Shown here piece after piece: positions 751-35,424 of a DNA stretch of 36,079 nt (the first letter of the stretch is position 1; each line of letters opens with the position of its first letter). Under the pieces are notes generated by a model, which saw only the letters and a list, made by a program, of their open reading frames with translations, had not been told where the DNA came from and did no database searches. A program made the translations under genes and the position numbers. The DNA is from Candidatus Omnitrophica bacterium CG22_combo_CG10-13_8_21_14_all_43_16 (GTDB lineage Bacteria; Omnitrophota; Gorgyraeia; Gorgyraeales; Gorgyraeaceae), in the NCBI GenBank assembly GCA_002771475.1, contig PCTH01000062.1, forward strand, positions 1-36,079, written 5' to 3'.

Positions 751-828
751 ATGTCTCTTAAATTACTAAACAAGGTTGTTTCAATCTTTACTCTCGTCGC
801 ATTTCTAGCTACTAATGTCGCATATGCC
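751..828 (+). other. Sec signal peptide of the giant protein
   Basis: K residues, hydrophobic core VVSIFTLVAFLATNV, AYA|A cleavage-like site. Confidence 0.85.
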
Positions 829-3800
829 GCACCTGAATCCAAGTCTATATTCAAAAATAAAAAAGTTAACTACCAGAAAATCAGTGATAAAAATGAAGGA
901 GTAATACAGCAGAAAAAGGCTGTGCTTACAGGAGAGAACTCCAAGGAGCTTAAATCCCAGAAAAGAGAAGCCCAGAAGATACTTTCTTCGCATCTTTCTG
1001 ATATATCACTTATTCACATACCCCAGGAATTAGGTAAGGTAGTAGAGGTATACCAGAATCCTGACCATGATAATTCCAGGCTCATCGTGTACATTCAAGA
1101 CCTTCATACAAATCCTGAGGCGACCCTTAATTTAGCCGGCATATTGGAAATCCTGGTTAGAGATTATAATTTAGGACTGGTCTGCTCAGAAGGAGCGGAT
1201 GGAGTTGTGGATACATCCAGCGTTTCGAGTTTTCCGGATCCTGAAGTCAGAAAAAAAGTAGCCAGGCTTTTTGTTGATTCAGGAGAGCTTACGGGAGAGG
1301 AGTATCTATCCATAACAAAATATCCGGACCTGCCTATATGGGGCATTGAAAATAAAGACATATATTTTAAGAATATAGAAGAATTCAATAACATCATGAA
1401 GTTTAATCCGGATTCCCAGGTTTTCATTTCCCAGGCTAAGAAAGCCCTGGAAGAATTAAAACCTAAAATATATTCAAGGGAACTGCTGGCAATAGACCAG
1501 AGAGAAGCTGATTACGAGAACCAAAAGACAGAAACAGCCGACCATCTGAAATACCTGTCAAGTTATATCCAGAAATTAAACATCCCCACGGCTAACTATA
1601 AAAATATCGCTATCCTCAATGAAACCATAGATAAAGAATCAAAGATTGACCAGCAAAAGATTATGCAGGAATCCCAGAACCTGCTGTTAAATCTACAATC
1701 AGCGATTGCCGCTAAATCCAGCCGCAGCGACATGGATACATTAGTGGCCAAGGCAAGCCTTTTTAAAGACCAGAAGATCTCGCCTTTTTCATTTTACAGT
1801 TACCTGGAAGACCTGGCTAATAAACACCTGAAAGACCAGATGTCAAAATATCCGAATCTGATGGATTTCGTAGATTACCTTACCAAGGTGAATTCTTTGG
1901 AGTCCGTGAAGCTTTTCGTAGAGATGGAAGACCTGTCTTATGAAATAAAACAAAGGCTTGCAAAAAATGATGAAGAAAAAACACTTACCCAGGCGCTGCG
2001 GAGTATAAAATTTTTGGAAGGATTTTTTAACCTCAAGATATCAAATGAAGAATTGGATTATTACCTGCAGAATAAGGCTTCTTGCAATATAGCTTTTTTT
2101 GAGGCGTTTCTAAAACCGGCAATCAAAAAATATAATCTTTCCGATTTTGTAGATTTCAATCCAAGTCTGATAGATTCTCACCTTCAGGAAATAGAGGATT
2201 TTTATAAAACCGTAAAATCCCGCGACCAGGCAATGTTTACCAACACTACTTCTGAAGTGGAAAAACGCAATGTCAGGGTAGCTACCCTTATCACAGGAGG
2301 TTTTCATACTCAGGGTATTACCAGGCTTTTGAAAGAGAAAGGCTATTCCTATATAGTAATATCTCCATTTTCCAAAACAGAAATAGATGAGGAAAATTAC
2401 CATTTCCTTTTATCCGGCAAGCGCAAACCCATAGAAGAATTGATCAAGGACCTTGATAAGCCTTCTGAAGATAAAGCAAGTCAGGTTTCTGCAAAGTTGA
2501 GAGTCCCCTTAAATAGCGCTGAGAGGCTCAAAGATGCCATCAGCAATGTAACAAATGTATCGCCAATTTTGCTCTATAGTTCAGAAAAACCAGAAGCCTA
2601 TTTAACAGGAAAGGTTATAGCTATACAAGGCATAGGGGGTACAGGAGGCTTATTGCTTCGGCCTTTACTCGAAGGAGGAGCTATAGTCATAGCTTCTGAT
2701 GTTGATCCGATTAAAGTCAGCGCGGCAATAAAAGAATTTAAATCATATATTGATTCCAATAGGCTGTTCGTATTTTCTGAAGACAGACTCCCTAACGGCG
2801 CATACACCAATAAAATAATGAATCCGATGAAGCCTTTTTCGTATAAGCTTAAAACTATGGGGGTTAATAAGATAGATGTTTTCTCGCCCTGCGCAGTCGG
2901 GCCGGTTGTGAATCCATCTAGTATAGAGGCGTTAAAAAGCGCAGGCGTAAGCATTATCAGCGGTTCCTGCAATAATGTTACAGAAGACAAACAGCGCGAT
3001 AACCAGTTGTTAAAACAGGCGGGCATTGCCTATGTCCCTGATTATATAGCTAATGCCGGAGGGGTAACCGGGGTTGACGGGCACTTGGGCCATGAGGTCA
3101 CTAATAAAGCCATATCAATGAGAATATCTAAAAGGGTGGCGGATATTATCAATTCTTCTATTGCTACCGGCAGGACTACGCAGGACATTGCTGATGAAAC
3201 AAGCCGTAAGTTTTTTGAATCTCTTGAAAAAGCAGAAACATCGAATGCACAAGAAAATCCTAAGAAACTTGATGGATTGATTCTTGGAGACGGCTCTACA
3301 GTAAAGGTATTGATAAATAAGGAGGATTTTTCGGCTGAAGCATTGAAACACTGGGATAATCATTACGGCGTTTTTGAAATTAGTAATAAAAATTTAGGAT
3401 ATACCGCTTATATGTCAATCCACCGGTTTACGAAGATTAACAGTAAGGCAGAAATAGTTAACGGCCAATATCGCGCCACCGGCGGAACCAGAATCCGTAA
3501 CTATAAGTCCAATGATGATGCCCTTATTGATGCGTTAGAGTTATCGCAGGAGATGAGTTTCAAGAACGCGGGAGCGCTGTTGGCAATCGGAGGCAGTAAA
3601 TGCGCTATCAATGTCAGCATAGATCCTAGAAGCAACGGCAGGGATGCCGAAACAAGAAAGTTGATTTTGATTAGTTATGCTAAGGCAATAGAAGAGATCG
3701 GCAGGTTAATCGGCGGAGGTGTTTTGACAGGACAGGACGTCAACATAAGCGAAGATGACGCTAAATTGTTATTTGAATACGCCCCGACCTCTATAGTTCC

Positions 3801-6800
3801 TTATATAGCGCCTGAGCTTTGCATACCTCCTACGCCGCCTACAGCTGTTGGAGTTTTTATTTCAATAGCTACAGCATTAAAAGAGACCGGCAATCTGTCA
3901 TTCAAACCCGGAAAAGGCGCTTCTCTGGCTTCCAACAGCAGCCTTGGTTTAAAAGAAATTAAGTCAGCCGCGATAGAAAGATTAGCCGGCGTTTTACAAA
4001 AGGAAGACGCGATAGCCGATAAAAATAAAGCAGCGGAAACAATAGTTGAATATCTTATAACGGCCCGCGGAGTCGCTGTAAATACGCTTAAAGATATCCA
4101 ATTTTCTGACGGGCCTCAATATTCAGGCGCAACTGACAGGATGCTGCACGACATAATAATCCGCGGAAAAGGGCTTTCCATCGTTCTTACTATCACAAAC
4201 TCCACCCGTTTTGATCCCAGCGAAGAATTTAACGACTCTAAAATAGCATCTGATTTAGGATTAGGCCCTGATTTTATTTACTCGGAGCAGGGTAAGCCTA
4301 ATAAATATCTGGACATGATGATTGTGGAAGGATTGAAACAAGCCGGAGAGCTTACCAAAGAAGAAGAATTTTTGGCAGGAAGAAAGCTTGCTGAAAAAGT
4401 ATATACCATGTTTGATGTTTCAAAGGAAACAACAGTGATTCACAGGCTTGACAATTTGACATCTCATATGTTTGTGGTCAGAAGAGATGGAGACATTGAC
4501 GTCAGATTTATTGATTGGGGAAGGGCTATAAATGTTAGCGCAGGTAATCGCAGAACCTATAGCCAGAGGTTTATTTACAGATTTTTTGAGGAGATCGCTA
4601 CCAGCAATCTTTTTAAAAATCCGGAAGTAGCGCTTGCAGCTTTTTTATCAAGGCTTAAAGAGGTGGCTTTGCAGAATTCAAGAGAAGAATTTGATTATTA
4701 TAATGATTTATTAGATAAGGTATATGCTGAAGCAATTACAAAACCCATATCCGGACTTAATAATAGCGCAAAATATAAAGCGTTATATGAAAAAGCCAAT
4801 CCATTGATAGGAGAAATAAATGCGAGGTTGGGAAACTTTTCTCCAGCAAGCCTTACTGCTAGAAAAGTAGGGCAGGCAATGAAAGGCGCTAAAGGGTGGC
4901 TTGAAAGAGGATGGACGATTGCGAATCATATACTGGTGTCATTCCATTCAGCGTTTATATTGAGCGTATTAGTGCTCCCTGCGGTTATGAGAGGAGAGAT
5001 TTTATCTTTCATGTTCTTTTCTCCGGAAACGCTGCTTTCCATAGGATTTTTGTGGGCGTCTTATCATACAGGCGTGGCTATTCATGAGATGGGGCATTAC
5101 GTAACTTCTGTAAAAGTGGGAGCCCTAAACGACCAGCTTCTGCCGGAAGCAGAAAAGATGATGCAGAAAAGTTTTCTAAAAAGATTAGCGTGGCATGCAA
5201 AGATGTTCGTTCTGATACCTTACGGTAAATTTAACGGCGTAATAAAAACAGGCCTGAGTTATCATCCTGACGCGGAATATAATCTGGCGCAGACAGCAGC
5301 AGGCCCGCGCTGGAGCAGGAATTTGGCTTTTATAGCCTTGCCAATAGCTGCTATTTTAGTGGGCATAGGATTATTCGGCGGGAACGTATTGGCTACGTAT
5401 ATAGGAAGATTTGTGTTTGGCATGGGTATAGTAGGATACCTTGATTTTAAAATGGCAGATCCGGGAGAATATAAGAAATTCCGGGAGAGAGAACGCTTGG
5501 CAGCTTTGCGCGCTGAAGAAGCTACAAAAAAAGCTGACAAGGCAGGCCGCTGGATAGATAGAGTTGCTGAAGTTAAAAAACGCATGATAGATTCAAGACC
5601 TCAAATGGTCAGGACTAAAGACGGGCTTCTTGTCTGGGCGCCATGGCAGTTCCGTAATTGCGGAATGGGCGGAAGGCATACTGAAAAACAGTATCCGAAC
5701 AGCAATATCTCGATGCAGGAAACAATGTTCAACCCTCTTTCTCCCAAGAACTATGAAGATGCCCAGGAAATGACGATGAAACTACAGACCAGGCTTCAGG
5801 AGATTATTGAAACTGCCGAGGGCTGCAGGGTTATGGGTATAGGACTGGAAGGCGGATTAGCGCCTTATATTACAAAGGAAGCAGGGGATATAGTCCCGGA
5901 ACAGAGATTATGGAGGATGGCAAAACAGGCGATATTGGATAATGGATATATTCCAGGCGTGGATGTTGCAATCTCTTTGGATCCTGCGTCTTCAGAACTC
6001 GAGAATGCCTACAGGGAAGAAAATAATGATCCTAAAGCTATAGGCATGTATTTATTCTGGAGAGATAAAGAAAAAGTAGTTATGACGAGAGAGGAGCTTT
6101 ACCAATTCTTCAGAAAGACAATAGAAGATGAAGATATTCCGATTGTTTCCATTGAAGATGGTTTTGCCGAAGATGATGACGCAGGCTGGAAATTGATCCA
6201 ACAAGGTTTAGGAGATAAGCTTTTTATAATAGGAGATGATTCAGTCACTACCAGGGATTCATCCATTGAATATGCAGCGGATAATGACTTAAATAATACA
6301 TTTTTGTGCAAAGGAAACCAGATCGGAACGCTTTCCGAAACACTGCTGGCGATTCTGGTAGCTTTAGGAAAAAATTTGGACATAGTCGTATCTCATCGTT
6401 CTAAATCACCCAATGATGATATGGAAGCCCAGATTGCGCTGGCTTCTTTTGCCACAGGACTTAAGACAGGAGGCGGGGCAAATACAGAAAGGCTTATGAA
6501 GTACGGCTCTGTAATGAGGGTCATGGCTGAGGCAGTAAAAGATGCGCAGGCCGCTACGGCAGAGATGGCTCCTGATACGCGCGCAGAAATGCTGGAATCA
6601 GAAAAAATCGCAGGGAATCTTATAGACAGGCTGGTAATTACAGAGGTTACAGGATGGGAAGAAGCTACGAACGCAGGCATCCCGACTGTAAAGGTAAGGA
6701 TATCTTTCGGCATAGAAGGCAGCGAAAGGTTTAAAAAATTATTTGTATACGAAGGTTCTACCCCGTTAGGAACTTCAGCAGGGACAGGAGAGGCGATACA

Positions 6801-9800
6801 TCTGGTAGACTCTGTTATTTATGAAAGCCAGATTCCTGATGCGAAATACAAGGATTTATTTTCACTGAAGTCAGACGGGTCTTACCGTTTCAAGAAAGGC
6901 GTGACACGCGACCAGATTGATGCGCTTGGAGACCAGGCCTTGACAGAACTTTTCAGGAGATCTCAGCGTTACGATGGCAAAGGGTGCTTGAATGCGGTGG
7001 ACCATGTAAATAACACTCTCGCAAAAGATTTCACAGGTTTAAAATTAAAGGATCTTGGGGATTTGACGGACATAGATAGAAAACTTCTTGGTTTGGAGAT
7101 GCAGATTGCGCAGGAGCGAGGACAGTTGAAAGAAGGCGCGTCTTTGGATGAAAAAATTACAATAATGCAGAGAAAAGGCAATATAGGCATGAACGCTATT
7201 CTTTCGCAGTCATTGGCAGCTGCAAGGCTATTGGCAGCTTTGCAAGGAAAAGAGCTTTACCAGGTTTTAAGAGAAAAACTTACAGAGACCATGGCAAAGA
7301 CAATAGCAGCGAATGGCGGCCTTGATATCCTGCCGGAAGAGATAAAGAAAAAGGTTTCCATTGCCCAGGGGCAGGAACTCTGGGAGGCGCTAAACGAACA
7401 CCTGGATTTCTTTGAATTAAAGCGCGGCCTTCAGATCGTAAACAACAATAAGTCAAAAGACGTAAAACTTTACGAGCTCTTAAGGGGCGAGCTGCCTGTA
7501 TATGGGGACAAGGCGATTTCTAGAAAGAGCCTTGCGTCCAACGAGGGGCTTGGGAATATCGCGGCTGATTATGCTTACTTTGAGCCTAAATATGTAGAAG
7601 CTATAAATCTTCTCGTTGCATTGCATCAGGAACATCTTTTTGCAAGCTGGGATATGCCGGGCGTTAATGATAAACTTAAAAAGAAATTTCTCGAGCAGGT
7701 AATCGAGGCAGATAGCGCTTATCCAGGAGGATTGGTTCAATATCAGCAGAATGCAGTAAAGATCATAGGTAATTCTATAAAAGAAGTTAATGTTTTTGAA
7801 GGATTGACCCCGGAGATTCCAGAAATAACAAATATTGACAATACTGCCGGCATAGGAGATAAATACAAAAATTTGGAAAAAGAAGGATTAAAAATCGCGG
7901 ATAAATTCTCTATAGTGCTTGTAGCGGGCGGTAGAGGGGATAGGCTTGGCTATAGTGGCATAAAGATAGGAATACCTCTGGATCTTGTTACTGAAAGAAG
8001 GTATATAGAACACTATTTGGAAGGGAAAAAAGCTATTGAAAATGCTGCAAATACAAAAATACCTTTTGCAATAATGACTTCTGATGATAATCACGAGTCT
8101 ACGAAAGAGTTATTAGAAGAATTAGGCTATGTTGTAGTGTCTGATAATAATAGCAGGACCGTGATGGAAAAAGATGGTGATAAAATAGACCTTATTATGC
8201 AGGGGCTAGTGCCTGCAATAACAAATATTAAGGGTGATTTTGTCCTGGAAGATAAGTATAAATTATTATCTAAACCTCACGGGCATGGCGATGTACACGT
8301 TCTTATATCGAAATATGGGCTAATCAATGAATGGATTAAAAGTGGAAAAAAATATACAGTATTTATTCAGGATACTAATGGGCAGGTTCTTAACGCTATA
8401 TTATCAGGACTTAAGATAACAGATGAAAAAGGATTAGGACTTAATTTTATAACTGTTCCAAGAGATGCCGGGGAGGCAGCTGGCGCTATTACCAGATTGG
8501 AACCTAAAGGTATTGTTTGTAATGTAGAATATAATCAGTTAGATCCTTTGTTAAAGGAATCTAAAAAAGGCATGGGAGATGTGGCAGATCCTGTCACTGG
8601 CAAGTCTCCATATCCTGCAAATCTGAATGTATATTTTATAGAAAATGGTATATACAAGAAGGTCCTTGATATGACAAAAGGCATTATGCCGGAATTTGCT
8701 AATCCTAAATTTACAGATGCTTCCAAGACCTCTTTTCAGCCAACTAGATTAGAAACCATGATGCAGGATATAGCTATGATATTGCCAGAAGGGTCCAAAG
8801 TAGCAGTTGTAAATTATGCAGATAAAAGGGCTGTATTTTCTCCTGTAAAAAATAGTTTTAGTGAAGCAGAAAAGAAAATTAAAACAGGCAATTATCCAGA
8901 CCATATGGCTACAGGAGAAAGCGATTATTATAAGTATAATAGAAAATTGATTGCATTTGCTGGCATGCAGGTTGATGTTGAAGAATCAGAAGCGAGAGCG
9001 CAAGGCATAGTACCTTACAGCGAAGGAGCAAAAGTTGTTTTTTATCGCAGCTTTTTCACAACTGCAGACGATGTTTTATCAAAGATAAAAGGTGGATCTA
9101 TAAGCAATAAGTCTACTCTTGTGATAGGCGGGAAGAATGTTTATCTGGAAGACGTGGATATAGATGGCAGCTTGATAATAAACGTTGTGGCTGGGGCTAC
9201 GTTGAAGGTCAAAGGTCTTAAGGTGCAGAACGAAGGCTGGGAATTTGTTCAGCTTACACAGGAAGAAATGGTTAGTCCAGATACGCCAGAATATTTAAAA
9301 ATCAGAGGATATAAATTGGTTAAAAAAGGGCAAAAGGTCATTGATATACAAGAACCAGGTAAATATGAGATAGGATCCGACGGAGTTTTAAAGAAAACTA
9401 ATGTTAACCTGGCGTCTAATGCAGGACTTCAAAAGAGCCTTGCTTCCAATGAGGCGCTTGGAAACATCGCAGCTTATTATTCTTACTTTGAGTCTAAAAA
9501 TATAGTATTGACATACGATCAGGTGGGGTTTTTGCCGGAGAGGATAAAAGGATACCTGGCGCAGCAAGATTCTTTTATCGATGATTTAAAAAGCGATAAG
9601 ATTTCCGGCAAGCTCCAGGACGCGAAATTCGAGATAGCTAAGGCAGGATTGCAAGGCATAAAAGATGTGCCTTCCAAAATAAACTATGTAGATAAAAATA
9701 AAGATAAGATGTCAATGGAGGATTATGCTCAGGTATTTAACTTAGCGTTGGCTCAGGCGCAGATAGAGATCGGAAATATATCATATTACATAGATCAATT

Positions 9801-10395
9801 TAAGCCGTATGAGCTTTCGCATGAAGTAGCTTTGTTAAAAATAGCAGGATGGATAACACAAGGTTACAAGGTTATCCCTTTTGAATTCGGCGGAGAAGAG
9901 GGACTGCCTACAGGCAAGGATCTCTTAGAGAAATCAGAGAAGGGCCTCGTGAAGATATTTCTGATAGGTTCTGCGACAGGCGAGGAATTTATTAAAATTC
10001 AGCCTGTTAATGTGTCTGAAAAACTCAGCTCGAACGCAGGCTTATCTAAAAAACAGCAGGTAGATTCAATGGACCAGATTATAGTTGTTTCGGCGAGAAA
10101 CGTCGCAGCCGATAAAAAAGGTTTTGAGAATTGGATCGAGACCGGACTGCCCGCAAATAACGCGGTTGTCATATTAGCCGTTTCCGAAGAAGAGGCAGAC
10201 GCGGTAAAAGAATATGAAGATATCGCTTATATAAAGGTAGTAGGAAAAGATATTAATCAAGAATACGGGCTTAAATTAATCGAGCTATTTGGAACTTATG
10301 GCAGATCAGAATTTTTCGAAGGCTTTAAATTAGGAGTTCCTGCCAGTATAGATAAATACAAATCTTTAGCGGCTGAGATATCTTCAAGCGTATAG
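751..10395 (+). CDS. Giant secreted multi-enzyme fusion protein (3214 aa): signal peptide, TraB/ChaN-like domain, Glu/Leu dehydrogenase, kinase-like domain, M50-like membrane segment, enolase, UDP-sugar pyrophosphorylase, C-terminal module
   Basis: Single uninterrupted ORF with SD AAGGAGG and N-terminal signal peptide MSLKLLNKVVSIFTLVAFLATNVAYA|A. Domains were recognised by motifs listed in the separate entries. Confidence 0.95.
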   Translation: MSLKLLNKVVSIFTLVAFLATNVAYAAPESKSIFKNKKVNYQKISDKNEGVIQQKKAVLTGENSKELKSQKREAQKILSSHLSDISLIHIPQELGKVVEVYQNPDHDNSRLIVYIQDLHTNPEATLNLAGILEILVRDYNLGLVCSEGADGVVDTSSVSSFPDPEVRKKVARLFVDSGELTGEEYLSITKYPDLPIWGIENKDIYFKNIEEFNNIMKFNPDSQVFISQAKKALEELKPKIYSRELLAIDQREADYENQKTETADHLKYLSSYIQKLNIPTANYKNIAILNETIDKESKIDQQKIMQESQNLLLNLQSAIAAKSSRSDMDTLVAKASLFKDQKISPFSFYSYLEDLANKHLKDQMSKYPNLMDFVDYLTKVNSLESVKLFVEMEDLSYEIKQRLAKNDEEKTLTQALRSIKFLEGFFNLKISNEELDYYLQNKASCNIAFFEAFLKPAIKKYNLSDFVDFNPSLIDSHLQEIEDFYKTVKSRDQAMFTNTTSEVEKRNVRVATLITGGFHTQGITRLLKEKGYSYIVISPFSKTEIDEENYHFLLSGKRKPIEELIKDLDKPSEDKASQVSAKLRVPLNSAERLKDAISNVTNVSPILLYSSEKPEAYLTGKVIAIQGIGGTGGLLLRPLLEGGAIVIASDVDPIKVSAAIKEFKSYIDSNRLFVFSEDRLPNGAYTNKIMNPMKPFSYKLKTMGVNKIDVFSPCAVGPVVNPSSIEALKSAGVSIISGSCNNVTEDKQRDNQLLKQAGIAYVPDYIANAGGVTGVDGHLGHEVTNKAISMRISKRVADIINSSIATGRTTQDIADETSRKFFESLEKAETSNAQENPKKLDGLILGDGSTVKVLINKEDFSAEALKHWDNHYGVFEISNKNLGYTAYMSIHRFTKINSKAEIVNGQYRATGGTRIRNYKSNDDALIDALELSQEMSFKNAGALLAIGGSKCAINVSIDPRSNGRDAETRKLILISYAKAIEEIGRLIGGGVLTGQDVNISEDDAKLLFEYAPTSIVPYIAPELCIPPTPPTAVGVFISIATALKETGNLSFKPGKGASLASNSSLGLKEIKSAAIERLAGVLQKEDAIADKNKAAETIVEYLITARGVAVNTLKDIQFSDGPQYSGATDRMLHDIIIRGKGLSIVLTITNSTRFDPSEEFNDSKIASDLGLGPDFIYSEQGKPNKYLDMMIVEGLKQAGELTKEEEFLAGRKLAEKVYTMFDVSKETTVIHRLDNLTSHMFVVRRDGDIDVRFIDWGRAINVSAGNRRTYSQRFIYRFFEEIATSNLFKNPEVALAAFLSRLKEVALQNSREEFDYYNDLLDKVYAEAITKPISGLNNSAKYKALYEKANPLIGEINARLGNFSPASLTARKVGQAMKGAKGWLERGWTIANHILVSFHSAFILSVLVLPAVMRGEILSFMFFSPETLLSIGFLWASYHTGVAIHEMGHYVTSVKVGALNDQLLPEAEKMMQKSFLKRLAWHAKMFVLIPYGKFNGVIKTGLSYHPDAEYNLAQTAAGPRWSRNLAFIALPIAAILVGIGLFGGNVLATYIGRFVFGMGIVGYLDFKMADPGEYKKFRERERLAALRAEEATKKADKAGRWIDRVAEVKKRMIDSRPQMVRTKDGLLVWAPWQFRNCGMGGRHTEKQYPNSNISMQETMFNPLSPKNYEDAQEMTMKLQTRLQEIIETAEGCRVMGIGLEGGLAPYITKEAGDIVPEQRLWRMAKQAILDNGYIPGVDVAISLDPASSELENAYREENNDPKAIGMYLFWRDKEKVVMTREELYQFFRKTIEDEDIPIVSIEDGFAEDDDAGWKLIQQGLGDKLFIIGDDSVTTRDSSIEYAADNDLNNTFLCKGNQIGTLSETLLAILVALGKNLDIVVSHRSKSPNDDMEAQIALASFATGLKTGGGANTERLMKYGSVMRVMAEAVKDAQAATAEMAPDTRAEMLESEKIAGNLIDRLVITEVTGWEEATNAGIPTVKVRISFGIEGSERFKKLFVYEGSTPLGTSAGTGEAIHLVDSVIYESQIPDAKYKDLFSLKSDGSYRFKKGVTRDQIDALGDQALTELFRRSQRYDGKGCLNAVDHVNNTLAKDFTGLKLKDLGDLTDIDRKLLGLEMQIAQERGQLKEGASLDEKITIMQRKGNIGMNAILSQSLAAARLLAALQGKELYQVLREKLTETMAKTIAANGGLDILPEEIKKKVSIAQGQELWEALNEHLDFFELKRGLQIVNNNKSKDVKLYELLRGELPVYGDKAISRKSLASNEGLGNIAADYAYFEPKYVEAINLLVALHQEHLFASWDMPGVNDKLKKKFLEQVIEADSAYPGGLVQYQQNAVKIIGNSIKEVNVFEGLTPEIPEITNIDNTAGIGDKYKNLEKEGLKIADKFSIVLVAGGRGDRLGYSGIKIGIPLDLVTERRYIEHYLEGKKAIENAANTKIPFAIMTSDDNHESTKELLEELGYVVVSDNNSRTVMEKDGDKIDLIMQGLVPAITNIKGDFVLEDKYKLLSKPHGHGDVHVLISKYGLINEWIKSGKKYTVFIQDTNGQVLNAILSGLKITDEKGLGLNFITVPRDAGEAAGAITRLEPKGIVCNVEYNQLDPLLKESKKGMGDVADPVTGKSPYPANLNVYFIENGIYKKVLDMTKGIMPEFANPKFTDASKTSFQPTRLETMMQDIAMILPEGSKVAVVNYADKRAVFSPVKNSFSEAEKKIKTGNYPDHMATGESDYYKYNRKLIAFAGMQVDVEESEARAQGIVPYSEGAKVVFYRSFFTTADDVLSKIKGGSISNKSTLVIGGKNVYLEDVDIDGSLIINVVAGATLKVKGLKVQNEGWEFVQLTQEEMVSPDTPEYLKIRGYKLVKKGQKVIDIQEPGKYEIGSDGVLKKTNVNLASNAGLQKSLASNEALGNIAAYYSYFESKNIVLTYDQVGFLPERIKGYLAQQDSFIDDLKSDKISGKLQDAKFEIAKAGLQGIKDVPSKINYVDKNKDKMSMEDYAQVFNLALAQAQIEIGNISYYIDQFKPYELSHEVALLKIAGWITQGYKVIPFEFGGEEGLPTGKDLLEKSEKGLVKIFLIGSATGEEFIKIQPVNVSEKLSSNAGLSKKQQVDSMDQIIVVSARNVAADKKGFENWIETGLPANNAVVILAVSEEEADAVKEYEDIAYIKVVGKDINQEYGLKLIELFGTYGRSEFFEGFKLGVPASIDKYKSLAAEISSSV
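1030..2420 (+). other. TraB/ChaN/EreA-like domain (putative)
   Basis: Motifs IVYIQDLHTNPEA, VCSEGADG and, distally, ITGGFHTQGITRLL resemble the paired H/E motifs of that superfamily. Confidence 0.45.
2560..3240 (+). other. Glu/Leu/Phe/Val dehydrogenase NAD-binding (canonically C-terminal) domain
   Basis: GKVIAIQGIGGTGG, IDVFSPCAVGPVVN, SIISGSCNNV, IAYVPDYIANAGGVTGV. Confidence 0.85.
3274..3918 (+). other. Glu/Leu/Phe/Val dehydrogenase dimerisation (canonically N-terminal) domain
   Basis: GYTAYMSIHRF...ATGGTRIRNYKSNDDALIDALELSQEMSFKNAGALLAIGGSKCAINV, VLTGQDVNIS, PPTPPTAVGV. Confidence 0.85.
3990..4770 (+). other. APH/choline-kinase-like domain (putative, degenerate)
   Basis: VIHRLDNLTSHMFVVRRDGDIDVRFIDWGRA resembles the APH HxDxxxxN...DxG region. 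The HxD spacing is non-canonical. Confidence 0.4.
4905..5480 (+). other. M50-like integral membrane metalloprotease segment
   Basis: HEMGHYVTSVKVG (HEMGH at 5083-5097) flanked by several hydrophobic helices (ILVSFHSAFILSVLVLPAV, LAFIALPIAAILVGIGLFGG). A later DPGEY could be the third-ligand region. Confidence 0.55.
5596..6537 (+). other. Enolase C-terminal (TIM-barrel) domain
   Basis: MQETMFNP, GIGLEGGLAPY, SLDPASSEL, PIVSIEDGFAEDD, GDDSVTT, FLCKGNQIGTLSETL, VVSHRSKSPNDD, LKTGGGANTERLMKY. Confidence 0.9.
6610..7310 (+). other. Enolase N-terminal domain located after the barrel
   Basis: VTGWEEATNAGIPTVKVRISF, EGSTPLGTSAGTGEA, YDGKGCLNAVDHVN, GNIGMNAILSQSLAAARLLAALQGKELYQVL. Confidence 0.85.
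7528..7590 (+). repeat. Intragenic repeat copy 1 (SLASNEGLGNIAADYAYFEPK)
   Basis: About 54/63 nt identical to 9436-9498 by eye. Confidence 0.85.
7885..9260 (+). other. UDP-sugar pyrophosphorylase (eukaryote/plant USP-like)
   Basis: FSIVLVAGGRGDRLGYSGIKIGIPLDL, IPFAIMTSDDNHEST, LSKPHGHGDVHVLISKYGLI, VFIQDTNGQVLNAI, NVEYNQLDPLL, TRLETMMQDIA; left-handed beta-helix-like tail. Confidence 0.85.
9436..9498 (+). repeat. Intragenic repeat copy 2 (SLASNEALGNIAAYYSYFESK)
   Basis: Matches 7528-7590 at both nucleotide and protein level. Confidence 0.85.
10048..10392 (+). repeat. C-terminal module copy 1 (KKQQVDSMDQII...GVPASIDKYKSLAAEISSSV)
   Basis: Nearly identical protein and DNA end recurs at 14768-15106. 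Confidence 0.9.
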
Positions 10396-15137: not shown

Positions 15138-18047
15138 TTGTTAAAAAAAATATTTTCTATCTTACTGAGTATAGCGTTTATTTCTGCAAATACAGGATAT
15201 GCCGCTTCTAATCAAAAGCGGGATATTTCTCATCTAAGGGTTCCTTTAACCGCAACTAAACGAGTAGAAAAAGTCCTTAACGCGAAGCAGGTTACGATTA
15301 GAGGGAACTTCCTTACAGATCCTGATGTTATAGAAGAGGCATTAGCAGAGAAATCCAAAGTTAATACGCTTATAGCAGAGAATAAAGACAATGTTGAGTG
15401 GATGGCTGCCAGGGAGATAGCGGATTTAATTAAGTCAAAGAATGCCAAAGGAGAAAAAATAGTTGTTAGTTTTGCCACAGGCGGGACTTATGAAGGAGTA
15501 TATAAGAAACTTATAGAAATCACAAAGAGAGAAGGTATAAGCTGGCAGAATGTCGTAACCTTTAATCTTGATGAATATGCGTGGAATGCATATGGCTATA
15601 ACAATGGTTATCGCGCTCAATATTATGACAGAGAATCCTATCAGGCTTTTATGCGCGATAATTTATTCACATGGCTGAAAGAAAACGCGGGCTTACAAGA
15701 AAATAATATATATTTCATGGGAGGCCTTACAGAGTATCCTAGAAAAGAAGCTAATGATTATGAAGATTTAATAATGAAGGAGACTGACGGTAAGGGAGCG
15801 GATTTGCAAGTCCTAGGGATAGGAGTAGAAGGCCATATTGCTTTTATAGAAGCCAGGCCGGGCATGCCTTTGAAAGATTTCCTTAATATTAGTACCAGGG
15901 TTGAAAAATTGTCAGATAGCACAAGAAAGGCAAACTCCAGATTTTTTGATAATAACATAGATGCTGTGCCTCCTTATGCAATGACCCAAGGTATATCTAC
16001 TATCCTGAAAGCAAAAGAGATTTTATTGGTTGCTACCGGCCCTGCTAAAGCAGACGCTATTTTTAAGACTGTCATAAATAAAGTTACGCCTGCAGTGCCT
16101 GCTTCAGTTTTACAGATTCATCCTAACGCCAAGATTATTGTAGATAAAGACGCCGCAAAAAATTTAATAGAATTAACCATACAAGATTCAAGGCAAGGCG
16201 CTGTAAGAACCGCCATAAATCCGTTTCTATTATTTGAAACAGGAAAAGATAGGGGCAATCTTACCATAGATAAAAAGACGATATTTATCGGAATGGGCGG
16301 AGGGGATACAGCTGGTTTAAATGATTTTGTTGCGAACACGGTTGAAAGGCTGACAAAACTGGGATACAAAGTAATCGGCATCAGGAATGGCTTTAAAGGG
16401 TTATTAAAGGGAGCTAAATTGGAAGACAATCTGGTCGAGCTCACTCCCCGGATAGCTGCCAGCATGAAGGGACTGCCAAGCATAGTTTTAGGCTCGTGCA
16501 GGGAAAAATTAAAAGAAGAGGATATAACTAAGATTGTAGATATACTTAAGCCTTCAGCCGGCGCCATATTTATCGGAGGGAATGACCATTTAAAGAATGT
16601 AGGGCAGGTTGCTGACGAGGCTGGAAAGCAGGGAATAGATATAACTGTCGTAGGAGTCCCCAAAAGCATAGACAACGATTTCATGACTGTTATGCATGGT
16701 TTTTGGAGCGCAGTAATCGCCGGCCGGCAGACAGTAGCCAGGGCGTCTATTAATCCGAAAGAAGGAAAAGGCTTAACTACAGCGGCTGTGTTTGAATGCA
16801 TGGGAAGAAAATCAGGATCGTTGACTCTCGAGCTTTCAAAAGGCTGCCCTTCTTCTCACGTTGTTATAGTGCCTGAAAAACCTGTAACGATAGATGATAT
16901 TATAAACGCCTCCGACAAAGGCATAAGAAATTTCTTTGTGTCCGAAGGTTTTTCGTTATCCGAGGCGGACCCTAAATTGAGCCAATTATTGGAAGCTTAT
17001 CCTGTGCTCAAGACAATGTGGGAAAAATCCAGGACAAGCCCTGACAGAGACGCTCACGGCAATCCTAAACTCACAGGGGCGTCTCTATTTGTAAAAGGCG
17101 TATTAGAACATTTCTGCGGATTAAAGGTTGAAAAAACAGACCTGACGTATCAATTAAGAGGCGCTTTCTTGCAGCCGGATAATAAAGGTATTGTCTTTGA
17201 TACTTTTCTTGCCGGGAAATTTGCGGAGAAAGCCGTATCCCTTGTAGATACAAAACAAAGCGGTTTTGCAGTGACTTACAGCGGAGAATATGGAGATACC
17301 GAGGGCATGATAGAGGCTAAGCCTCCAAAAGACGTTTATCAATCCAGAGATTTGTCTACGATGTTATCCGACAAATCTTTGGCTGATCTCGGCGTACTGG
17401 GGGTCTCCGGATATCAGATTAATTACAATGCGATTCCTGAGTTATTTTCTGATAAGAAGGTTGTTTTAGAAGCTGCTATGAGAGAAGCTTTTTACAGCAT
17501 AGCTGTATCTACGCAGGCTCATAGGTACGCTTCTGTGGCGGAATTAAGAGAGCCTTCGGATGCGATAGTTTCCAGCTGCGGCAAGGATCAAGATAATCCG
17601 GATAAGCTTCCGAATGATTTAAGGACTGTAATAGAAGGCACCAGGGAATCGGTTCTTTTGCTTATTCCTGAAAAACAGGCAACTCTCAGCCAGATAGCGG
17701 ACAGAGCGAAAGATATATGCGATAAATCGGGGTACTTAAATATAGCTATATCAAAAGATTTTATGCTGGACCCGAAAGATGAGTTATTGGAAAGCGTCCT
17801 GAATACGGACCCTGTATTGAGGATAAAATTTAATAAAGAAGGCATAGCAGACGATAAAACCGGCATGGTTAGATTTGAATCAGGCGTTTCTAATTTTATC
17901 GTAGGGTTATATAAATATTTGATTAAACAGGGCAAGATAAAGGTAGAAGGCACTAAGATTACCGATCTTGGCTATGCCTTTAAAGGCCTGGCAAGGGCCA
18001 GCGCCCTCGATTCAATTAATAGAGAGGCTTTGAATTCAGGGGTTTAA
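15138..18047 (+). CDS. Secreted fusion protein: glucosamine-6-phosphate deaminase-like (NagB) + 6-phosphofructokinase (TTG start)
   Basis: Signal peptide MLKKIFSILLSIAFISANTGYAA. NagB motifs: FATGGTYEGVYKKL, VTFNLDEYAW, LGIGVEGHIAF. PFK motifs: GMGGGDTAGLN, IGGNDHLKNV, GVPKSIDNDFMTV, FECMGRKSGSL. Confidence 0.92.
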   Translation: MLKKIFSILLSIAFISANTGYAASNQKRDISHLRVPLTATKRVEKVLNAKQVTIRGNFLTDPDVIEEALAEKSKVNTLIAENKDNVEWMAAREIADLIKSKNAKGEKIVVSFATGGTYEGVYKKLIEITKREGISWQNVVTFNLDEYAWNAYGYNNGYRAQYYDRESYQAFMRDNLFTWLKENAGLQENNIYFMGGLTEYPRKEANDYEDLIMKETDGKGADLQVLGIGVEGHIAFIEARPGMPLKDFLNISTRVEKLSDSTRKANSRFFDNNIDAVPPYAMTQGISTILKAKEILLVATGPAKADAIFKTVINKVTPAVPASVLQIHPNAKIIVDKDAAKNLIELTIQDSRQGAVRTAINPFLLFETGKDRGNLTIDKKTIFIGMGGGDTAGLNDFVANTVERLTKLGYKVIGIRNGFKGLLKGAKLEDNLVELTPRIAASMKGLPSIVLGSCREKLKEEDITKIVDILKPSAGAIFIGGNDHLKNVGQVADEAGKQGIDITVVGVPKSIDNDFMTVMHGFWSAVIAGRQTVARASINPKEGKGLTTAAVFECMGRKSGSLTLELSKGCPSSHVVIVPEKPVTIDDIINASDKGIRNFFVSEGFSLSEADPKLSQLLEAYPVLKTMWEKSRTSPDRDAHGNPKLTGASLFVKGVLEHFCGLKVEKTDLTYQLRGAFLQPDNKGIVFDTFLAGKFAEKAVSLVDTKQSGFAVTYSGEYGDTEGMIEAKPPKDVYQSRDLSTMLSDKSLADLGVLGVSGYQINYNAIPELFSDKKVVLEAAMREAFYSIAVSTQAHRYASVAELREPSDAIVSSCGKDQDNPDKLPNDLRTVIEGTRESVLLLIPEKQATLSQIADRAKDICDKSGYLNIAISKDFMLDPKDELLESVLNTDPVLRIKFNKEGIADDKTGMVRFESGVSNFIVGLYKYLIKQGKIKVEGTKITDLGYAFKGLARASALDSINREALNSGV
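15280..16200 (+). other. NagB-like domain
   Basis: ATGGTYEGVY...NLDEY...GIGVEGHIAFIEARPG. Confidence 0.85.
16258..17560 (+). other. Phosphofructokinase domain, PPi-type signature
   Basis: GGGDTAGLN; GGND in place of GGDG; PKSIDND in place of PGTIDND. Confidence 0.8.
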
Positions 18048-32699: not shown

Positions 32700-32748
32700 T
32701 TTACAATAGATTTTAAATCATTAATAGCATATCTAACAGGGTAAAATT

Positions 32749-35424
32749 ATGAATATTGTAAAGTCAGCGAAGAAAATTGTATAATTACTGCTCGCCATAG
32801 TTTTTATATCCACAAATACAGCTTATTCTTTAGAAAGAACATTGAGGGTTCCGCTGCAGCAAGTTGAAGAAAGGCTAACGAAAGTCATTTCTAAGTATCC
32901 TGCTGGTCTGGGACATGTTGAGCTGGCGACAAAAGAAAGAGATGAAACCCGCAAGTTTCGCTATGTAGTGCTTGGCATAGGCATGCAGGGACCTAGCGCG
33001 GCTTATGACCTGGCAAGCCAAGATGATACCAGAGAAATTACACTTGTGGATAAAGATATAGGGCGCGCTAAGAAATTGGCAGAGAGCCTGCCTATATCTA
33101 AAGACAAGATTAAGGTATTACAAGCTGATTTAGCCGATGCCGATGCGCTTAGGGAATTATTTCAAAAATCAGATGTTGTTATAGGCGCGGCGCATTATGC
33201 CTTAAATGCCGAATTAGCCAGGGTTGCCTCAGAGACAGGCGCGCATTTTATAGATATGGGAGGAAATACAGAAGTGGTTTTAAAAGAGCTTACTTACGCT
33301 GATATGGCGATAAAAAATGGCGCCAGCATTATTCCTGATATGGGTTTAGCGCCGGGCATGGCAGATCTTCTGGCATTAGACGGCATTCAGGAGATGGATA
33401 TTATTAATGATGTAAAGATACGCGTTGGCGGTCTTCCTCTAGCTGGTTCCAAGGCTTATAGCAATCCATTGCGCTATATGCTTGTTTTCGGTATATTCGG
33501 ACTTATCAATGAATATATGGGAGAGGCATTGGCTATTAGAGATGGCAAAGTGGTTGTTATTCCTACATTTGGCGAACGAGAATCCTTTGAAATAAACGGG
33601 GAGCAGTATGAAGCATTTCCTACATCCGGAGGCACATCTACGCTAACGAGCGGAAAATTCCGCGGGAAAGTAAAGAACATGGATTATATGACAATACGCT
33701 ATCCAGGGCACGCGGAAATTATCAAGGCATTTATAGAAATGGGGTTTTTTGATGAGGCTAAAGTCAGCCTTAAAAATAAAGAAGCCAGGCCTTCCGAATT
33801 TTTTAGCAGTCTGGCTAAGGAAAGAAAAGAGGAAACTTTATTTAATAAAGAGAATATCCGGGAAGCCATGGAGTACCTTGGTATTTTAAGTAATGATCCG
33901 ATACAGTTTAATGAGGCAAGTATATCTCCCCGCCAGTTTTTTGCCCAATTGGCGGAGAAGGCATTGAATTTTCCAGGAGAAAAAGATAAGGTAATAATTT
34001 TTGTCAGCGTGTCCGGAGAGAAAAATGGAAAGCCGAAGACTATAGAATATTATTATGACTCGTCCATGACCGGCGAGTACGGCAGTCAGTTTTCAGAAAT
34101 GGCGCGCACAACAGGCTTTCCTGTGTCTACGACAGCCCTGATGCTGGCGCGGGGCCAGATCAAATATGTAGGCGCCGCAGGGCCAGAACATTTTGTTCCT
34201 ACGGGACTGCTAATAGAAGAACTTAGAAAAAAAGGGGTAGGTATTGATAAACGTGTTATAGATGAAGCGCCAACTAGAAAGCTTGCCAGCAATGAAACAT
34301 TTTCTAGCGATATGTTAAAGGAAATAGCCGACATCAGGGAAATTCTTGTAGAAGATAAAGGATATTCTTTTGATAAACTTGCGCCAGATCGACCTGATGT
34401 CTACAAAAAAAATATTGATAGATTAAAAAAAATAGCCCGTAGATCCGATTGCTCTCCGAAGGCTTATGACAGGATTACAGGAGTTCTGAATGAGACGCAC
34501 GAGAAGTATTTTAACCTTACGGCGTATAACAGCACATTAGGCACACTCACGCGAGAAGATATAAAAAAGCTAGATAATTATATCGTATCTGCCCTGAAAG
34601 ATATATCTGATCAGAATTTAGAGGAGTGGTTAAAGGACACTGTTGTTTTAGTAACAGATAAAATAAGAGAATGTTTTAAATATATGAAAGGCAAAGATAC
34701 CGGCCAGGAAATGCAAAGCGTAACCGTTGAAATTTATTCTTTCGGCATCAATATGTGGTATTATAACACTAAAAAAACTCCTGATAGCTCAATAAAAATA
34801 GAAGAAAAAACTATTTTTGTAGGACCAGCTGAAAGAAAATTTATTAAAGCCGCGCTTTCAAGGCGTATCTCTAGAATAAGTTTTAATTTTGGCGCTACAA
34901 GGGAGGATATAGAAAAAAAGCTGCTGTCAGCGGCAGGTTTTGGTAATTATGTGCATGGGATGGCAGGCTGCAAGATTCCGGAAGAAACGCGTAAGCATAT
35001 AGCTAATGAGTTAGCTAAGTTTATGAAGGTTTATACAAAGGACACTCAAATCACAATAGAAGATGACAGAGAAAAGCTTTTATTGGATAAAGGAATTTAT
35101 TCTGTAAAAGTAGATATTTCTTCAATAGCCAAACATTTCGGCTTACCAGAGGATTCTCTGGCCAGATTAAAAGAAATTTTTAAAGAATATGAAGAGGGAG
35201 TTAAAATTGACGCAGCTTCCATAGCTATAACTGCGCTACCTACCAGAGTAGTAGATTTTATTTATATGGAAAAAGAAGTCAGGATTTTGGTAAAAGACGT
35301 TAATTCCGGGTATTCTTGGGTTAAGCCTGGAGATGAAGAGTCGATCAGGAAGATAAAAGCTATTGGTTTTTTGAATGAAATAACAGATCCAAAGACTGCT
35401 TCTATTCTTGGAAAGTCATTATAA
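32749..35424 (+). pseudogene. Saccharopine dehydrogenase/lysine 6-dehydrogenase-like protein fused to an unknown domain; the frame includes an ATG at 32749 with an in-frame TAA (32782-32784) inside the signal peptide. Intact ORF 32842-35424.
   Basis: RYVVLGIGMQGPSAAYDLA, DMGGNTEVV, IIPDMGLAPGMADLLA. The upstream in-frame translation MNIVKSAKKIV*LLLAIVFISTNTAYSLERTLRVPLQ is a clear signal peptide interrupted by a stop. Whether it is a true pseudogene is uncertain. Confidence 0.65.

Follow-up and report, generated by a model that had tools for sequence, protein, structure and literature searches.

A phosphofructokinase with pyrophosphate-type specificity residues in a predicted exported NagB fusion protein of Omnitrophota

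Open reading frames and domain layout of the locus

The window considered here (the whole stretch of DNA that was analysed, 36,079 nucleotides from an Omnitrophota genome) encodes a 969-aa protein in which a predicted signal peptide leads into NagB and phosphofructokinase (PFK) domains, with a degenerate second PFK half behind them. Two longer open reading frames (ORFs), which encode candidate exported polyproteins, lie directly upstream on the same strand. The features are as follows.

751-10395, forward strand: upstream predicted exported polyprotein, 3214 aa, with dehydrogenase, enolase, UDP-glucose pyrophosphorylase and an HExxH membrane segment
10415-15109, forward strand: upstream predicted exported polyprotein (P0002), 1564 aa, with phosphohexomutase and a further region
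15138-18047, forward strand: whole ORF, 969 aa, TTG start, with signal peptide, NagB, PFK and degenerate PFK half
15138-15203, forward strand: predicted signal peptide LLKKIFSILLSIAFISANTGYA, first 22 residues, by a hydropathy heuristic
15234-15248, forward strand: LRVPL motif after the signal (HLRVPL), found in several predicted exported Omnitrophota ORFs
15369-16178, forward strand: NagB (glucosamine-6-phosphate deaminase) domain, aa 78-347; D72, H143 and E148 present, D141 replaced by Glu
16218-17465, forward strand: catalytic PFK domain, about aa 361-776
16575-16586, forward strand: GGND, positions 101-104 (N103, D104), aa 480-483
16587-16598, forward strand: HLKN (H105, N108); residue 108 larger than Gly, the third PPi signature
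16659-16679, forward strand: PKSIDND (K124, S125, D127, D129), aa 508-514, aligned with E. coli PfkA 123-129
16800-16817, forward strand: MGRKSG (M169, G170, R171)
17142-17162, forward strand: LTYQLRG (Tyr at 249, R252), closely preceded by Glu at position 243
17466-17999, forward strand: degenerate second PFK C-half, about aa 777-954, from BLASTP and the AlphaFold2 (AF2) model

The TTG start is directly preceded by GAAAGGG. The sole alternative in-frame start within the first 130 codons is the ATG at codon 89, which lies inside NagB and rules out an internal cytosolic start for that domain. An assembly chimera as the source of the PFK was likewise dropped, because the PFK is followed by nusA and infB in identical order in the sister species (G091). 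The Pfam PFK family PF00365 was matched at aa 382-701 (3.3e-31; 109.1 bits against a cut-off of 30.9), and this match, together with the PFK fold of the AF2 model (17 sequences; pLDDT 91.3, pTM 0.91), places the protein in the PFK superfamily. The best PDB match of the model was the PPi-PFK1 of T. vaginalis (E 4.5e-20). With regard to the NagB domain, Pfam Glucosamine_iso was matched at aa 83-326 (47.9 bits against a cut-off of 27), and NCBIfam nagB TIGR00502 at 7.9e-59 with 199 bits, which is under its cut-off of 236.9. Since NagB makes fructose-6-phosphate (F6P), the substrate of PFK, the fusion would couple consecutive steps.

In the 3214-aa upstream protein, the C-terminal domain of the enolase (aa 1639-2173) precedes its N-terminal domain, a natural circular permutation in which the active-site motifs are intact. 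The C-part of the Glu/Leu-type dehydrogenase (aa 618-1008) likewise comes before its N-part. A HEMGH segment with hydrophobic helices (aa about 1410-1630) gave a weak M50 protease match (E 0.018), and a HExxH-like stretch also precedes the PFK of L069 (G293). Both upstream ORFs share a C-terminal segment starting KKQQVDSMDQII.

The preliminary description held that most enzymes of the operon need no ATP, which would suit an extracytoplasmic location. This stands in part: the predicted exported dehydrogenase implies NAD(P), and the UDP-glucose pyrophosphorylase, a PPi-making enzyme type, implies UTP. An isomerase in P0002 found no confirmation in Pfam, the PDB or AF2. Specifically, glucose-6-phosphate isomerase-like motifs can be read by eye at aa about 745-1456, a region with no Pfam or PDB match; a two-sequence AF2 model of the P0002 C-terminal region reached a pLDDT of 34, and PF00342 had no match in the window genome.

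Donor site and sugar site of the phosphofructokinase domain

Using MAFFT, we aligned the window PFK and related modules (16 PFK modules encoded within large ORFs of Omnitrophota) with E. coli PfkA, whose numbering is used throughout (checked identical to 1pfk), and the two cytosolic PFKs of the window genome. The window PFK carries N103, D104, H105, N108, K124, S125, D127, D129, M169, G170, R171, E222 and R252. HMMER alignments to the T. vaginalis PPi-PFK (GGDD), the T. brucei ATP-PFK (GGDG) and 3k2q/3hno (GGGD) gave the same register at positions 103, 104 and 124. The preliminary description had placed GGND and PKSIDND at the 104 and 124 equivalents, within 16573-16683, and the alignments agree with it: D104 and K124 are in place, with no other residues at these positions.

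According to a 2025 review (PMC12203962), Asp at the 104 equivalent fills the ATP alpha-phosphate site, the Gly that ATP enzymes have at 108 gives way to a larger residue in PPi enzymes, and Lys at 124 is not diagnostic alone, being found in T. brucei PFK, which depends on ATP. All 16 modules retain D104 and K124, and residue 108 is other than Gly in 15 of them (Asn in the window PFK). All three published PPi signatures (D104, N108 and K124) are thus present in the window protein, the second of which had escaped the preliminary description, and position 104 is Asp rather than the Gly of the ATP-type GGDG motif. PKSIDND does supply the lysine but is not by itself a mark of PPi use, because K124 also occurs in the T. 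brucei ATP enzyme and in the GGDG PFK of the window genome (L002). As judged from these alignments, ORF 15138-18047 is confirmed as a PFK with PPi-type specificity residues.

The Asp-to-Asn change in GGND, previously described as unusual, is not exceptional. N103 occurs in 9 of the 16 modules and in ordinary-length PFKs (~400 aa, e.g., 401 aa) of other Omnitrophota (L026-L029), of which L027 reaches 430 bits against PRK14072 of NCBIfam, where the cut-off is 273. Position 103 is Gly in 3k2q/3hno and Glu in the cytosolic L001 of the window genome. On this comparison, position 103 is naturally variable among predicted PPi enzymes, because Asn is found in modules and ordinary PPi-PFKs and Gly in 3k2q/3hno. 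Decay or sequencing error as the origin of GGND was ruled out, as the motif is common to both groups of Omnitrophota proteins. The other PFKs of the window genome, L001 (GGED) and L002 (GGDG), both have K124 and both are without a signal.

When compared with known systems, the best NCBIfam PFK match of the window protein was PRK14072 / NF010675 (3k2q, 3hno), yet at 97.1 bits against the cut-off of 273. The two have PS..LGSCR.KL, D104 and K124 in common, and Omnitrophota members of that family have GGND; unlike them, the window PFK is predicted to be exported, is fused to NagB, and has an extra half and another F6P site. T. vaginalis PPi-PFK1 (9mf6/9dqm) and B. burgdorferi PPi-PFK (1kzh/2f48) have the same fold and a GGDD/PKTIDND-type donor site, with Asn181 of the Borrelia enzyme corresponding to N108; unlike the window protein, these cytosolic enzymes are about 420-555 aa long, are without NagB and have Asp at 103. 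By sequence, the top phmmer match was the T. brucei ATP-PFK (2hig), which has K124 in common but Gly at 104, and uses ATP. The eukaryotic tandem PFK-1 likewise has, within a single chain, a non-catalytic half after the catalytic one, although only the C-half is clearly duplicated in the window protein and no special kinship was seen.

The canonical F6P site (R162, R243, H249, R252) is not matched: R252 is kept, R162 is lost, and positions 243 and 249 are Glu and Tyr. The sugar substrate could therefore differ. The region at aa ~777-954 is a degenerate repeat of the PFK C-half (BLASTP 1e-6 against its own C-half and 5e-16 against the G199 PFK); it is confidently modelled by AF2 and has a dN/dS of 0.095. 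The 243 equivalent is Lys or Arg in the degenerate half of all five close orthologues, with Glu in the catalytic half, and the degenerate half also has an Arg near the 162 equivalent. In E. coli-type PFKs, R243 comes from the neighbouring subunit. The same origin is described for R162 (PMC12203962). We infer that the degenerate half would most likely stand in for the neighbouring subunit within the chain, so that its basic residues would make up for the missing R162 and R243 at the sugar-phosphate site. Judged by eye, L068:3860-8665 (G199) seems to have a sequence similar to the degenerate half ahead of the PFK and not behind it, a possible permutation.

Related modules and export-type N-termini

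When 384 genomes of the class were searched with a profile, PFK modules were detected in large ORFs of several families (at least in G398, G400, G309, G375, G013, G266, G141, G057 and G172), in addition to the family of the window genome; this count is a lower bound, with few candidates scored per genome. The modules share 22-47% overall identity and were found in open frames of up to about 10,590 aa. In a scan of genome contigs, the sister locus was the only match. The window PFK family fell outside every curated PFK subfamily. In the tree, the modules were separate from the PRK14072 clade (100/100), and all but G172 were also separate from the classical clade (99/96), with the order of the backbone not resolved. 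A position beside 3k2q/3hno was weak in a first tree (73/68) and gave way to one outside both known clades with more rows. The G172 PFK looks like a separate recruitment in this tree. One 10,499-aa open frame of that genome (L108) holds two classical-type PFK modules.

Other enzymes accompany the PFK elsewhere in the class. In G057, which belongs to another family, PFK and NagB modules occur in one cluster of ORFs with predicted signal peptides, with FBPase nearby. A single 3218-aa ORF of G013 (L104:3685-13338), also with a predicted signal peptide, combines transketolase, transaldolase and PFK.

Signal-peptide calls were made with a hydropathy heuristic. At the N-terminus of ORF 15138-18047, the maximum 12-residue hydropathy was 2.55, whereas cytosolic controls did not exceed 1.6, and the predicted Sec-type features comprise a basic n-region, a hydrophobic core and an AxA-like site. 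Of the PFK-bearing ORFs, ten have a complete N-terminus, and every one of these carries a hydrophobic export-like signal; an AxA-like site is present in most of them, and most signals are followed by an L[RA]xP-type motif. In the sister genome, the PFK forms an ORF by itself, which begins with a predicted signal peptide unlike that of the window protein and has LLRPP. The earlier view of the PFK as secreted is upheld as far as the export-type signal goes, and the location itself is predicted. A strict signal-plus-motif rule returned only three ORFs in a 511 kb sample of the window genome, two of them within the window, so that the motif is not ubiquitous.

Two further ORFs of the window genome carry motifs of this kind. 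L111:2507-5251 combines a predicted signal peptide with ALRPPL and an acyl-CoA dehydrogenase. A saccharopine-dehydrogenase-like ORF at 32740-35424 of the window has LRVPL; its would-be signal peptide contains an in-frame stop, so that this copy may be defective or remain unexported.

Possible activity and role of the predicted exported enzymes

We consider, with moderate confidence, that the protein is a Sec-exported bifunctional NagB and PPi-PFK, and part of an exported multi-enzyme set that handles sugar phosphates. Its NagB domain would convert glucosamine-6-phosphate into F6P and ammonia, and its PFK domain would reversibly convert F6P and pyrophosphate into fructose-1,6-bisphosphate. D104 would block the place of the ATP alpha-phosphate and N108 that of the adenine, with K124 and D127 carrying out the transfer. 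The predicted exported set (phosphohexomutase, UDP-glucose pyrophosphorylase, enolase and amino-acid dehydrogenase) duplicates part of the cytoplasmic enzymes and probably acts on sugar phosphates beyond the inner membrane, which may come from prey or host cells.

Glycolytic enzymes often moonlight as structural or adhesive modules at cell surfaces. It is conceivable, if unlikely, that the proteins are exported yet catalytically idle, their enzyme folds having been taken over for structure or adhesion in large surface proteins. Giant Omnitrophota ORFs of the Velamenicoccus type, whose function is poorly understood, have been proposed as adhesins or coats (PMC10066038), and an idle role would also fit the loss of the F6P contacts R162 and R243, the Glu in place of NagB D141 and the degeneration of one PFK half. 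These giant ORFs belong to the same phylum, are large and multi-domain, and are thought to act outside the cell; unlike the multi-enzyme proteins of the window, they are described with few annotated domains, and a term search of PMC10066038 returned nothing on phosphofructokinase, signal peptides or polyproteins. Against idleness, the donor-site and catalytic columns are nearly invariant despite the low overall identity of the modules: of the 11 catalytic columns compared across 14 diverged modules, 10 do not vary at all and one stands at 93%, compared with a mean top-residue share of 0.49. The dN/dS of the PFK core (G000 vs. G091) was 0.058 (~0.06), a value that is approximate because dS (1.19) is near saturation, and the enolase motifs upstream are intact. 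Because the catalytic positions are nearly invariant and dN/dS is about 0.06, the window PFK is probably an active enzyme.

An active PFK could instead use ATP, or another sugar phosphate such as sedoheptulose-7-phosphate, in place of the PPi-F6P pair. This appears distinctly unlikely given D104 at the ATP alpha-phosphate site in 16 of 16 modules and a large residue 108 in 15, although K124 is common to ATP enzymes, the F6P contacts are changed, and the G013 module is fused to transketolase and transaldolase.

In a further reading, which seems very unlikely, the hydrophobic N-terminus would serve to anchor the protein in the membrane or go unused, and the enzymes would work in the cytoplasm. 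In its favour, the cytoplasm is the normal place of PPi, sugar phosphates and UTP, no signal peptide precedes the G091 homologue of the C-terminal region of P0002, and some related polyproteins at other loci have response-regulator, histidine-kinase or GGDEF domains, which normally work in the cytoplasm. Against it, signal-like N-termini mark all ten complete PFK ORFs, orthologous PFKs are preceded by unrelated signal sequences, and ordinary cytosolic PFKs, enolase and NagB are encoded elsewhere in the window genome.

Central sugar-phosphate chemistry is taken as cytoplasmic because its substrates and ATP are found there, and it would be out of the ordinary for glycolytic enzymes to have genuine export signals together with a conserved active site. 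If the exported bifunctional enzyme is real, a PPi-using PFK fused to a substrate-making enzyme would be a way round the missing ATP. More broadly, and as a tentative possibility only, Omnitrophota may run a second, extracytoplasmic central carbon metabolism in signal-peptide multi-enzyme polyproteins (PFK, NagB, enolase, phosphohexomutase and UDP-glucose pyrophosphorylase, and elsewhere transketolase, transaldolase and FBPase). Pyrophosphate would be its phosphoryl currency, several of its enzymes would be circularly permuted, and the PFK sugar site would be completed by the in-chain degenerate half. Members of the phylum are described as predators or host-dependent, among them the predator Ca. 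Velamenicoccus archaeovorus (PMC12583861). The recurrence of the module in giant ORFs of several Omnitrophota families would offer a testable function for these so-called adhesins or coats.
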